From IMG/VR virus record IMGVR_UViG_3300035698_005395, positions 1 through 39,439 of that record: DNA of 39,439 bases. One strand, 5' to 3'. A program made the position numbers and the translations under genes. The notes beneath the pieces are model-generated. The model had not been told where the DNA came from, made no database searches, and worked only from the letters and a program-made list of their open reading frames with translations. The DNA is from a virus. Below are positions 7,252 to 33,129 of this stretch, piece by piece. Within the stretch, counting starts at the first letter, position 1. The number at the start of each line of letters is the position of its first letter.

Positions 7252-7875
7252 GTGAAGATTTATTTATGTGCTAGAGAAGCTGATTTATTTAAAGCATGGC
7301 AATTTTATTGCGACCATCATGATTTTGTTGAGGTCACTAAACAAGATATTATGTCTATAAAAGCTGACGCCATAGTTAGTCCAGCAAATTCGTTTGGTTA
7401 TATGACAGGTGGAATAGACCTTTTATATAAGAATTACCTTGGCCAGAAGATGGAAGACGACCTTAGGCAAATACTTGCTGATAAATATAATTATGAGTTA
7501 CCTGTAGGTATAGCTGTGTCTGTGCCATTGACTAACACTCCACCTACAGTTGCTTATAAATATATGATCTCTGCCCCAACTATGAGAGTGCCTGTGGTTG
7601 TTAAACACACCATCAATGCTTTTTTGGCAGCTAAGGCAGCCCTCATAGAGGCGGAAAAACTAGGGGTGGAAAGTGTAGTCTTTCCTGGCTTGGGAACTGG
7701 TACTGGTACATTATCGGCCCGTGATTGTGCTACACAAGTCAACGCTGCTATAAATTATGTGTTGTTAGAGAGGAGACATATCACTGGCCCGAAATCGTTT
7801 TACGAGGAACATGATTATATGATAAGAAATATAGTAACTAAATCCTGGCTGGCCGTTCAAAGGGGGAGGGTATAG
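7252..7875 (+). CDS. macro-domain (ADP-ribose-binding) protein
   Basis: A 207-residue stand-alone macro domain. SPANSFGYMTGGID (residues about 43-56) matches the Asn/Gly ADP-ribose-binding loop, and PGLGTGTGTL (about 143-152) matches the phosphate-binding loop. Macro domains bind or hydrolyse ADP-ribose, ADP-ribose-1''-phosphate or ADP-ribosyl modifications. In phages they may process tRNA-splicing by-products or counter NAD-based defence, which is inference here. The start is GTG at 7252 behind aaggagg. It ends in TAG, and the next gene's ATG lies 3 nt later in the same frame. Confidence 0.85.
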   Translation: MKIYLCAREADLFKAWQFYCDHHDFVEVTKQDIMSIKADAIVSPANSFGYMTGGIDLLYKNYLGQKMEDDLRQILADKYNYELPVGIAVSVPLTNTPPTVAYKYMISAPTMRVPVVVKHTINAFLAAKAALIEAEKLGVESVVFPGLGTGTGTLSARDCATQVNAAINYVLLERRHITGPKSFYEEHDYMIRNIVTKSWLAVQRGRV

Positions 7876-12354: not shown

Positions 12355-12597
12355 ATGCCCCCTGTAGATGAATACGATGGCAATGGTGGGTGGAAAGAGT
12401 GGAGTCAATATGTAAAGTTAGGTATAAGGGATTTACAAACGAAACTTACTATAGTTGAGAAAGATCTGACTAGCATAAAGATTGAACTCGGTGTGTTGAA
12501 AACTAAAATGGCCATGTGGGGTGCTTTAGGGGCTACGGTAGCTACCATAGTTCTTCAACTCCTTTTTGCTTATTTAAGGGTAAAGGGAGGCCTTTAA
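12355..12597 (+). CDS. XhlA-like coiled-coil/membrane protein, possible holin accessory
   Basis: An 80-residue protein. The N-terminal half is polar (DEYDGNGGWKEW), then a heptad-like helix (residues about 25-50) leads into one C-terminal hydrophobic segment (WGALGATVATIVLQLLFAY, about 55-73). This layout matches the haemolysin XhlA family that cooperates with phage holins. No endolysin lies next to it, so assignment to lysis is tentative. Its stop TAA shares a base with the next ATG. Confidence 0.55.
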   Translation: MPPVDEYDGNGGWKEWSQYVKLGIRDLQTKLTIVEKDLTSIKIELGVLKTKMAMWGALGATVATIVLQLLFAYLRVKGGL

Positions 12598-13715
12598 TGA
12601 TAAAGATGATGAATAGGTTCATCGAGAGGTCTGTTTCAATATACTACAAACTCGGAGAAGTGCCTCAAAAACTATTAGGATATTTAGGATTTTCTTTGTT
12701 GCTGTTCTTTAGCTGGCAGTCTTTTGTTGTGTTGGCTCTAGACCCTCTTACAGTAGAAGCTTTACAGAAGGCCCTGTATAATTTTCTAGAATTCTCATTC
12801 TTCATGTCTACTGGAACGGTAGTGTTCTTCATAAGAAGATGGTGGGAAAATAAAACACAGATTGACAAACTCATGCAAGATGACCCTTTTACCAAGATAG
12901 ATGAGTTGGCTAGTATGCTTACGGAAAGAGATGAAGCATTAAGAGAAAGCGAAGCTTTACTCAAGGCAGCAATGGATCAGAGTCAAGCCGGTATAGCTAT
13001 AGCGGATGCACCAGATGGTAGACTGCGTTACGTTAATAAAGCAGGACTAGATATACGAGGGGCACCGGCAGAGGTAGCTTTTGATGACGTAAATAAGGAA
13101 ACATATGTCTCAGCTTGGGATCTTAGATATCTTGACGGCACTCTTTGCGAGAATACTGACGTTCCTTTAACCATAGCTATAAACAAGGGTGAGGTCTGTC
13201 GCAAAGAATTCATTGTAAGAAGACCTAGCGGTGAAGATAGATATATTTTAGCCCACGCGGCTCCGATATTTAATTCTGATGGCCTTGTGACGGCTGGTAT
13301 TGTTGTGTTTTTGGATGTAACAGACCGTAGGGATGCCGAAAGGGCGTTAGAAAGAAGTGAAGAAAAATTTAGAAAAGCTATAGAATACAACACAGACGCT
13401 GTTGTCTTGGTTGACACAAAGGGTGAAGTTCAGTACATTAATAATGCCATGATGACTTTAACAGGACTTGATGAATTAGCCTTGTTAAGTACACAGTTTG
13501 GCTTCCCACTTACTACTGGTGATATAACAAGTGTAGATATTGTAGACAGTTACGGTGTGCCACGTTGTGCTGAAATGCGTGTATCTGAAATAGATTTAGA
13601 AGGTGAGCACTTATATATAGTTTCTTTAAGAGATTTTACAGAGGTACCTGAGCCTTGCGATGGAGAATTAGTTTGTCCAGTAAAGGATTACAGTTATGAA
13701 GATTCTAGTGGTTGA
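12597..13715 (+). CDS. membrane-anchored double-PAS sensor-like protein without kinase domain
   Basis: A 372-residue protein with two N-terminal membrane segments (about 25-47 and 60-78), a charged helical linker (about 84-118) and two PAS domains (about 118-240 and 250-350). Sequences such as AAMDQSQAGIAIADAPDGRLRYVN, FLDVTDRRDAE and IEYNTDAVVLVDTKGEVQYIN are typical PAS and PAC segments. There is no histidine-kinase, GGDEF or HTH domain. It would sit in the inner membrane and sense a ligand or redox state. It overlaps a receiver-domain gene by 20 nt, so the pair is probably a split signalling module. ATG 12597 has a perfect aaagggagg before it. Confidence 0.82.
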   Translation: MIKMMNRFIERSVSIYYKLGEVPQKLLGYLGFSLLLFFSWQSFVVLALDPLTVEALQKALYNFLEFSFFMSTGTVVFFIRRWWENKTQIDKLMQDDPFTKIDELASMLTERDEALRESEALLKAAMDQSQAGIAIADAPDGRLRYVNKAGLDIRGAPAEVAFDDVNKETYVSAWDLRYLDGTLCENTDVPLTIAINKGEVCRKEFIVRRPSGEDRYILAHAAPIFNSDGLVTAGIVVFLDVTDRRDAERALERSEEKFRKAIEYNTDAVVLVDTKGEVQYINNAMMTLTGLDELALLSTQFGFPLTTGDITSVDIVDSYGVPRCAEMRVSEIDLEGEHLYIVSLRDFTEVPEPCDGELVCPVKDYSYEDSSG

Positions 13716-14061
13716 GGATAACCTAGAGCGGATAAAATATTTTATAGAAGTTCTTGGTAAATATAAACTCAAAGTAGTTGACAAAGCTGAAGAGGCTATA
13801 GAATTGTTAAGTACACAAGTTTTTGATATGATTTTTTTGGATAACGATCTAAGGGATGGTGGCTTCGGTGCTGACGTTGCTGCCTACCTCAGCATCGAGT
13901 CGGATAATCCAAACAATAGAGCTAACATTATAATTCATTGTTGGGACGACAGGGCTATAGAGGAAATGAGAAAAAAGTTAGATCCAGTATGTCCTAATGT
14001 AATGAATATAAAATACAGCGAAGCACTTTCTGGTTATTTAGGCTTGACAAATGACAAATAG
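13696..14061 (+). CDS. response-regulator receiver (REC) domain protein, partly degenerate
   Basis: A 121-residue single CheY-like receiver. Visible are ILVVEDN (acidic pocket, E7/D8), the likely phospho-acceptor FLDND (D49) and a final-strand Lys in NIKYSEAL. The conserved Thr/Ser after strand 4 is replaced (IIIHCWDD), so phosphorylation-driven switching may be altered. No output domain is present. It overlaps and is probably co-translated with the PAS protein. The C-terminal GLTNDK codons run into the next promoter. Confidence 0.75.
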   Translation: MKILVVEDNLERIKYFIEVLGKYKLKVVDKAEEAIELLSTQVFDMIFLDNDLRDGGFGADVAAYLSIESDNPNNRANIIIHCWDDRAIEEMRKKLDPVCPNVMNIKYSEALSGYLGLTNDK

Positions 14062-26617: not shown

Positions 26618-26698
26618 GCGGGCGTTGGGTAATGGTATCCCATCTGCCTTCCAAGCAGACGCTTCGGCATGCGAGTTCGAGCCTCGCCGCCCGCTCCA
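26618..26698 (+). tRNA. tRNA-Gly(TCC)
   Basis: Acceptor GCGGGCG/CGCCCGC; anticodon arm TCTGC-CTTCCAA-GCAGA gives UCC; D arm TGGG/CCCA; variable region enlarged with a GC-TTCG-GC mini hairpin; T73 and encoded CCA. Same identity as the tRNA at 26502. Confidence 0.9.
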
Positions 26699-26710
26699 TA
26701 GGAGAACCGA

Positions 26711-27088
26711 ATGGTGCATAAAATTTTAGTCATAGACGACGATGCGGCAATAAGAAGTTTGTTTGCCGAGGTGTTGGAAAGAGAAGGTTATTTAGTTTTT
26801 ACAGTAGCGTCAGGTGAAGCAGCCTTAGCGGAATTAAATACAGGAGCATATGGATTAGTTTTTCTGGACTTAAGAATGCCTGGATGGGGAGGCGTTGAAA
26901 CTTTAAAGCGGATCAGGGCTGAGCATAAAGAGATCGCTGTCTATATTAGTACCGGGTTTTATTCAGACTACTTGAGTCCCTTGAGGGCAGTAGCCGCAGA
27001 AGGTGTGGATTTTGAGGTTATAGAGAAGCCAATAGGTAGAAGCCAGCTAACATCTGTGGTCAGAGGGGTTTTCCAAAACGGAGACTAA
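26711..27088 (+). CDS. response-regulator receiver (CheY-like) protein
   Basis: A 125-residue stand-alone REC domain with all canonical residues: ILVIDDD (D9/D10 acidic pocket), LVFLDLRMPG (phospho-acceptor D53), YISTG (S/T switch, about 80-81) and IEKP (K106-P107). It should be phosphorylatable by a host histidine kinase. No output domain. The stop is 1 nt before the next start, a KaiB-like gene, so the two are co-translated. ATG 26711 follows ataggagaacc. Confidence 0.9.
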   Translation: MVHKILVIDDDAAIRSLFAEVLEREGYLVFTVASGEAALAELNTGAYGLVFLDLRMPGWGGVETLKRIRAEHKEIAVYISTGFYSDYLSPLRAVAAEGVDFEVIEKPIGRSQLTSVVRGVFQNGD

Positions 27089-27089
27089 A

Positions 27090-27362
27090 ATGTATAAATT
27101 TGAGCTGTTTGTGGCGGGCTCATCCTATAAAATGGTTGATCGCGTCAATGAGTTTTTGGAAATACACCTACACGGTCTTTACTCACTATCTATTGTCGAT
27201 GTTGTAAATGATTCCAAGTATGCTAGGGAGCAGTGCATATTTGCTACGCCAGTTCTTGTAAAGCGTAGTCCTGGATCAGAGCGTAGGGTGTTTGGCAATT
27301 TGACAAATCCAGAAGATGTATTAAAAAGTTTAGGTATAGTCTTGACAATTGTCAAAAGATGA
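27090..27362 (+). CDS. KaiB-like protein (thioredoxin-like fold)
   Basis: A 90-residue protein matching KaiB along its length: YKFELFVAGSS at the N-terminus (KaiB YxLxLYVAGxxP), a helix, LHGLYSLSIVDVV (GxYxLxVIDV), then ATPVLVKR and RRVFGNL (ATPTLxK...RRIIGDLS), and the final EDVLKSLG helix. KaiB binds KaiC in the cyanobacterial clock by fold-switching; in other bacteria KaiB-like proteins pair with KaiC, kinases and receivers. The start TGTATG is ATG 27090 after the receiver stop. The last codons overlap a promoter. No KaiC is in this window. Confidence 0.85.
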   Translation: MYKFELFVAGSSYKMVDRVNEFLEIHLHGLYSLSIVDVVNDSKYAREQCIFATPVLVKRSPGSERRVFGNLTNPEDVLKSLGIVLTIVKR

Positions 27363-27369
27363 TTATAGT
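27342..27369 (+). promoter_or_regulatory. sigma70-like promoter with palindromic -35 region
   Basis: TTGACA (27342-27347), 16 nt ending TGAT, TATAGT (27364-27369). TTGACAATTGTCAA (27342-27355) is a perfect 14-bp palindrome covering the -35, a possible operator. It overlaps the end of the KaiB-like gene. Confidence 0.65.
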
Positions 27370-27402
<33 letters not shown>

Positions 27403-27779: not shown

Positions 27780-28154
27780 GGGCCTGAAATGGTATCGACG
27801 TGGCGGATGAGGATAAAGATTCGATGCGTAGACGTTCACAACACTACGTTAAAATTGTGGAAAAAAACTAACTGGCGAATCTATGTTAGACTATGCTCTT
27901 AGACAGCTTGAAGGAGTTATTGAACTTAAGGGCAACACTATGACCGCTTCAGTGTAATTAATGTAAGCGGCTCATGGGGCTTATCGGGAGCCTATCAACA
28001 GAATCCCGTGGTGGTAATGACGCAAGTCAGCCGTGGCAGGTGAGGAACCTACGCCCATAAGTTAAAATCCTCAAAGTACTACTGTAATAAACCTATCATC
28101 GTCAACCCTTTATGCAAAGTGTTGCGGACCCGAGTTCGACTCTCGGCAGGTCCA
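27780..28154 (+). ncRNA. ssrA: transfer-messenger RNA (tmRNA)
   Basis: One-piece tmRNA of about 375 nt. The 5' end GGGCCUG pairs fully with CAGGUCC at 28147-28153. GGUAUCGACGU near the 5' end is the tmRNA equivalent of GGAUUCGACGG, and the 3' end carries the T arm CCGAG-TTCGACT-CTCGG. Resume signal CUAACU precedes GGC (27874). From there the open frame reads GESMLDYAL and continues 18 codons to a TAA at 27955-27957. The expected tag would end at YALAA. Ribosome rescue is the usual function. Confidence 0.93.
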
Positions 28155-28156
28155 CA
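28103..28156 (+). repeat. direct repeat copy 1 (tmRNA 3' end)
   Basis: 54 nt including the T arm and 3' acceptor strand of the tmRNA. 48 of 54 positions are identical to 28580-28633. Confidence 0.9.
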
Positions 28157-28163
28157 AAAAAGA

Positions 28164-33053: not shown

Positions 33054-33129
33054 GGCCCGGTAGCTCAGTGTGTAGAGCGGGACTCTCTAAAAGTCCGTGT
33101 CATGGGTTCGATCCCCATCTGGGCCACCA
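33054..33129 (+). tRNA. tRNA with CTA anticodon (amber suppressor)
   Basis: Acceptor GGCCCGG/CTGGGCC; D arm GCTC/GAGC; perfect anticodon stem GGACT/AGTCC around loop CTCTAAA, so U33 is followed by CUA, which reads UAG; T stem ATGGG/CCCAT; A73 and encoded CCA. All four arms are sound. The charged amino acid cannot be told from sequence. It lies 6 nt after the methyltransferase stop. Confidence 0.9.

Follow-up and report, generated by a model that had tools for sequence, protein, structure and literature searches.

A viral DNA stretch of 39,439 nt (record IMGVR_UViG_3300035698_005395, analysed at its full length and called the window below) carries a gene for a stand-alone receiver that is immediately followed by a gene for a real, divergent KaiB. 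Both KaiB and receivers are known families; no earlier description was found of a phage KaiB beside a receiver, and of one that modelling predicts to stay fixed in its active fold. Phages reshape host metabolism and two-component signalling. KaiB serves as a model of metamorphic proteins, and the timing of the clock is set by its slow change of fold. A phage with this pair may tamper with a timing or stress circuit of its host. The records and papers searched include no virus with a KaiB detectable by sequence homology. In particular, no description of a phage KaiB was found in the open-licence papers searched, and a survey of 224 jumbo phages makes no mention of Kai. A sequence-only reading of this DNA had already named no well-described phage system of this kind, and the searched records and papers agree with it.

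The window covers a fragment of the genome of a large phage rich in tRNA genes. It includes more than 20 tRNAs plus a tmRNA, replication genes (family A DNA polymerase, clamp loader, RNase HII, and a Rad52-like protein), nucleotide genes (ribonucleotide reductase, dUTPase, dCMP deaminase, and uracil-DNA glycosylase), a DNA methyltransferase, and a Clp-type ATPase. Huge phages of 480-640 kb are among the named records nearest to the Clp ATPase. One tRNA (33054-33129) has a CTA (amber) anticodon, as does a tRNA of the relative L097 (5525-5601); the amber recoding suggested by this tRNA was rejected, TAG being the stop of 10 of the 44 window genes. A macro-domain gene lies at 7252-7875. At 12516-14061 a membrane-anchored tandem-PAS protein without a kinase core is encoded, followed by an overlapping gene for a cREC (PF20274) protein, and this PAS-cREC unit is kept in two relatives (L210, 2010-3168, and L211, 9265-10859). 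The cREC domain was described as tied to NAD/ADP-ribose systems (PMC7824862).

The pair and its immediate surroundings include the following features:

26618..26698, plus strand: tRNA-Gly, the end of a tRNA array, immediately upstream of the receiver gene (ARAGORN, Rfam)
26700..26704, plus strand: AGGAG, Shine-Dalgarno-like site of the receiver gene, directly after the tRNA-Gly (sequence)
26711..27088, plus strand: stand-alone CheY-like receiver, 125 aa, phospho-acceptor D53, without an output domain (PF00072, PDB match, residues)
27080..27083, plus strand: GGAG site of kaiB, within the 3' end of the receiver gene (sequence)
27090..27362, plus strand: KaiB-family protein, 90 aa, predicted fold-switched (thioredoxin-like) state (PF07689, PDB, AlphaFold, Foldseek)
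27365..27402, plus strand: (ATAG)9 microsatellite between kaiB and the next gene (TRF)
27780-28157: tmRNA downstream of the pair (Rfam, 88 bits)

The two open reading frames were confirmed exactly as first reported, with a single base between them. Because of this one-base gap and the ribosome site of kaiB inside the receiver gene, translation of the two genes is likely to be coupled. A TTGACA/TATAGT promoter-like sequence lies beside the (ATAG)9 repeat, which is a possible slippage site. The tmRNA is also called in the relatives L096 and L098, and the predicted tag peptides are unusual.

The pair could in principle be bacterial DNA misassembled into a viral contig, and it is indeed a singleton. 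However, it sits between the tRNA-Gly (which ends at 26698) and the tmRNA (which starts at 27780), with the phage tRNA array within a few bases and no bacterial flank, and the receiver and kaiB genes match the other genes of the phage in GC and GC3. With such flanks and composition, an artefact of this kind is extremely improbable.

The first protein of the pair matches PF00072 with an E-value of 3.5e-22 (Pfam; 79 bits, profile positions 1-110 of 111) and has a PDB sequence match at 2.4e-16. The domain occupies residues 5-117 of 125, and nothing follows it. The acidic pair D9/D10, the phospho-Asp D53, T81, K106, and P107 are all kept, so the protein is a canonical stand-alone receiver, as was claimed from the sequence. 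Its kin in sequence searches are general FixJ and hybrid-kinase receivers of about 39% identity. The phage collection yields weak matches to it, many of them from records of bacterial appearance. A specific donor was rejected: the top plasmid matches are generic alphaproteobacterial receivers with the same low identity (~39%).

The second protein matches PF07689 at 36.3 bits against a cut-off of 27 (E-value 4.5e-9, positions 2-80 of 82), and KaiB models are its only matches in NCBIfam (9.4e-13 and 1.8e-12). It scores below the cut-offs of the circadian KaiB equivalogs TIGR02654 and NF006798 (47.2 of 145.3 and 48.1 of 110 bits, respectively). KaiB chains of the PDB match it at 1.1e-11, and the matches are KaiB chains throughout, down to 8e-5; the N-domain of SasA, a sensor domain, comes at 0.38 in the same search and was rejected as the closest kin. 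The E-values of the profile and PDB matches exclude chance for both the receiver and KaiB. All of the KaiB motifs quoted in the sequence-only reading are present, and its assignment of the 90-aa protein to the KaiB family and not to generic thioredoxins holds by PF07689, the PDB KaiB chains, and Foldseek. The best Foldseek match in the PDB is a fold-switch-stabilised KaiB bound to KaiC, and the second is the Legionella KaiB. A generic thioredoxin or glutaredoxin was rejected, as KaiB and the Legionella KaiB outrank all thioredoxins in both sequence and fold, and the protein has no CXXC motif.

Cellular KaiBs are 38-42% identical to the phage KaiB, and none of them is clearly the closest. The phage protein is the longest branch, without a supported position, in a tree built from 35 KaiBs; donor tracing by this tree was rejected, since the phage KaiB joined another long branch without support. 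The length of this branch and the low identity of the receiver to generic receivers suggest that both genes have long been separated from any sampled donor.

Modelled by AlphaFold on 18 sequences taken from the window and retrieved loci, the phage KaiB is predicted with pLDDT 87.5 and the order E-H-E-H-E-E-H, i.e., in the fold-switched state; this is a single prediction, since the top model alone is this confident, the other four of five having 63-77. A cyanobacterial KaiB of the fold-switching type modelled on the same 18 sequences gives pLDDT 49, so it is the phage sequence, and not just the alignment, that yields the confident fold. The phage KaiB is thus predicted to be permanently in the fold-switched, KaiC-binding state. 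In S. elongatus KaiB, K57, G88, and D90 are reported to regulate the fold switch (PMC5520375), and in the alignment the phage KaiB has C49, S80, and G82 at these positions. The α2 helix of KaiB contacts the B-loop of KaiC (PMC6769508); part of the contacting segment is kept in the phage KaiB (A45, E47, and I50). The substitution D90G impairs the rhythm in S. elongatus, which was ascribed to the KaiB-KaiB ring surface (PMC6769508). Since G82 stands at the D90 position, the phage KaiB may by analogy bind the KaiC ring less cooperatively than the host KaiB.

Bacterial KaiB was found only where full-length KaiC exists (PMC5520375), and fold-switched KaiB is the form that binds KaiC (PMC11551320). 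From these two statements we infer that the phage KaiB would act on the KaiC of the host, provided that the host has one. KaiC (PF06745) has no match within the window, itself a fragment of the phage genome, and histidine kinases (PF02518) have none in the window or in its three close relatives, all of them fragments; any partners must therefore come from the host. Needing no switch, such a KaiB would occupy KaiC early and keep it in the KaiB-bound state. The phage protein would bind the CI ring of host KaiC with no delay from the slow change of fold and compete with host KaiB and SasA-type readers, and the Kai timer or stress switch of the host would be fixed in its KaiB-bound output. The receiver would take phosphate from a host kinase and serve as a phosphate sink or, alternatively, as an input by which the action of KaiB is tuned; in the latter role it would be like the receiver half of KaiA3, which is encoded upstream of kaiB3. 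Our preferred reading, a constitutively "on" phage KaiB that acts on host KaiC together with a receiver that takes host phosphate, is tentative, with a little less than an even chance of being right. The stronger version, in which the fold-switched phage KaiB seizes host KaiC and arrests or resets the clock or a KaiC stress timer, with the co-translated receiver as the phospho-input, is on the unlikely side. That the phage redirects a Kai pathway of the host, as was proposed from the sequence, is plausible.

Several points stand against action on KaiC. The phage KaiB, being the longest branch of its family tree, may have lost KaiC binding. No other virus among those searched keeps kaiB. The receiver is not a KaiA3 orthologue, having 22 bits of similarity to the KaiA3-like protein of a Desulfobacterota locus (L183). 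Besides, the fold alone is no proof of a clock role, as there are fold-switched KaiBs such as Legionella Lpp1115.

The phage KaiB could instead be independent of KaiC. It would then be a small adaptor with a thioredoxin fold, bound to a histidine kinase of the host or to another partner, and the receiver would serve as its phospho-partner in a response of the stress type. Such a mode of action may apply to SasA, through its KaiB-like sensor domain, or to stand-alone KaiB2-type proteins. The divergent sequence, scoring under the circadian equivalog cut-off, and the Legionella KaiB as the second-best fold match are consistent with an adaptor; so are kaiB genes without an adjacent kaiC (e.g., on plasmid L002) and the kinase-less PAS proteins in the phage lineage. 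Nevertheless, the phage protein is far nearer to KaiB than to the SasA N-domain, and we consider such an adaptor, with its supposed kinase binding, unlikely.

Close relatives of the phage were found with the Clp ATPase as an IMG/VR query (63-68% identity); with a polymerase as the query, no near kin among phages came up. The relatives are L096 (45.8 kb), L097 (228 kb), and L098 (72 kb), and many of their genes are syntenic with the window. The Clp ATPase gene of L098 (9119-11611) has an intein-like insert (which begins with CFVPGTKV and ends with VHN) in the ATPase region. Together with 63 further virus records that have a related Clp protein, the relatives make up 66 records, all of them fragments, and none, including the three syntenic relatives, has a KaiB over the family cut-off; there is one sub-threshold partial match of 31 positions. 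The expectation that related phages keep the pair together thus failed, which weakens the conservation of the pair and is not fatal to it, because all of the records are fragments. A tblastn search with two KaiBs as queries found no KaiB in 50,697 phage records. Four KaiB-directed scans of IMG/VR gave no confirmed match, but such short-peptide-pattern scans could miss another divergent KaiB, and IMG/VR queries with the phage KaiB, the receiver, and three KaiB alignments gave no confirmed match for the pair. A KaiC-family match in the 228-kb relative was rejected, as it reads as RecA. One siphophage protein with a "KaiB domain" in BFVD is not counted as sequence-level prior art (TM 0.45, 15% identity; the tblastn search of the phage records with two KaiBs was empty). 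Given the absence of KaiB from the relatives, the phage records, and the IMG/VR scans, the pair counts as accessory cargo, rare in this lineage and not a conserved phage operon.

The relative L098 encodes a stand-alone receiver in the same inter-tRNA interval (30 bits of similarity to that of the window), followed by a 70-aa membrane protein and not by KaiB. This different occupant of the same place, as well as the lack of KaiB in all 66 records, would be expected if the two genes were passengers picked up at a tRNA-array hot spot, without any selected function during infection or with a transient one at most. On the other hand, both frames are intact, the key residues are kept despite the long branch, the base composition fits the phage, and the start sites are coupled, which together point to long residence under selection. 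We find passenger cargo quite unlikely.

The locus in L098 also demonstrates that the receiver can exist without KaiB. The two genes may accordingly be functionally unrelated neighbours, the receiver working with the phage PAS proteins or as a phosphate sink for host kinases and KaiB working alone, an arrangement compatible with any model of KaiB. The one-base gap with the ribosome site of kaiB inside the receiver gene argues against this, as does the recurrence of REC-kaiB adjacency in bacteria, and we consider unrelated neighbours somewhat unlikely.

The phage KaiB, with its predicted permanent active fold, would provide a natural experiment with a KaiB that needs no wait, and phage manipulation of host timing would become directly testable with purified Kai proteins. 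If it is true that this KaiB seizes KaiC, this would be the first case of a virus attacking a prokaryotic clock at the level of proteins. The phage also offers a minimal receiver-KaiB unit to set beside the recently found KaiA3-KaiB3 systems.

The gene for KaiA3, a protein made up of a receiver and a KaiA domain, directly precedes kaiB3, and KaiA3 promotes phosphorylation of KaiC3 (PMC11372060). The KaiA3-KaiB3(-KaiC3) systems of Synechocystis and others are like the phage pair in that kaiB shares a transcription unit with a receiver-bearing gene directly before it; the phage protein differs in that it stops after the receiver, without the KaiA C-terminal domain, and no kaiC follows. Two Desulfobacterota loci, L183 and L184, have KaiA3-like genes (1474-2642 and 34-1204, respectively) directly upstream of kaiB with gaps of 33 and 23 nt. 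They encode a receiver with a KaiA-like C-terminus, the KaiA likeness being judged by eye and Pfam detecting the receiver alone. Desulfobacterota are absent from the non-cyanobacterial holders of KaiA3 given in PMC11372060. On the Aquisphaera plasmid L004 a PAS-kinase-REC gene overlaps kaiB by 4 nt and kaiC follows, so the receiver module precedes kaiB in the identical order. The Pararhizobium plasmid L003 has the order kaiC-kaiB-kaiB-kinase-receiver, and its hybrid-kinase receiver is the nearest kai-linked receiver to that of the phage found here (44.5 bits). Unlike both plasmid operons, the phage has neither the kinase core nor KaiC.

As for KaiB itself, KaiBTV-4 (8UBH, PMC10808063) and Legionella Lpp1115 (4KUN) share with the phage protein, as predicted, a fold-switched thioredoxin-like free state, whereas the phage KaiB is phage-borne, about 30% identical to them, and adjoins a receiver. 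Circadian cyanobacterial KaiBs belong to the same family (33-41% identity); compared with them, the phage KaiB lacks three residues somewhere around helix 1, has K58/G89/D91 (T. elongatus numbering) replaced, and scores far under the equivalog cut-off. Among phage proteins, PIT4 of Pseudomonas phage LSL4 is similar in that it interferes with host phospho-signalling; in the available text of PMC10714779 it is described as binding histidine kinase domains and is not presented as a KaiB or a receiver. The receiver-then-kaiB pairing noticed in the sequence thus has bacterial precedents for its order (three loci in this analysis, and KaiA3-KaiB3 of PMC11372060). Since bacteria also put receiver genes directly upstream of kaiB, the phage pair resembles, by analogy, a clock unit stripped of the KaiA or kinase domain and of KaiC.
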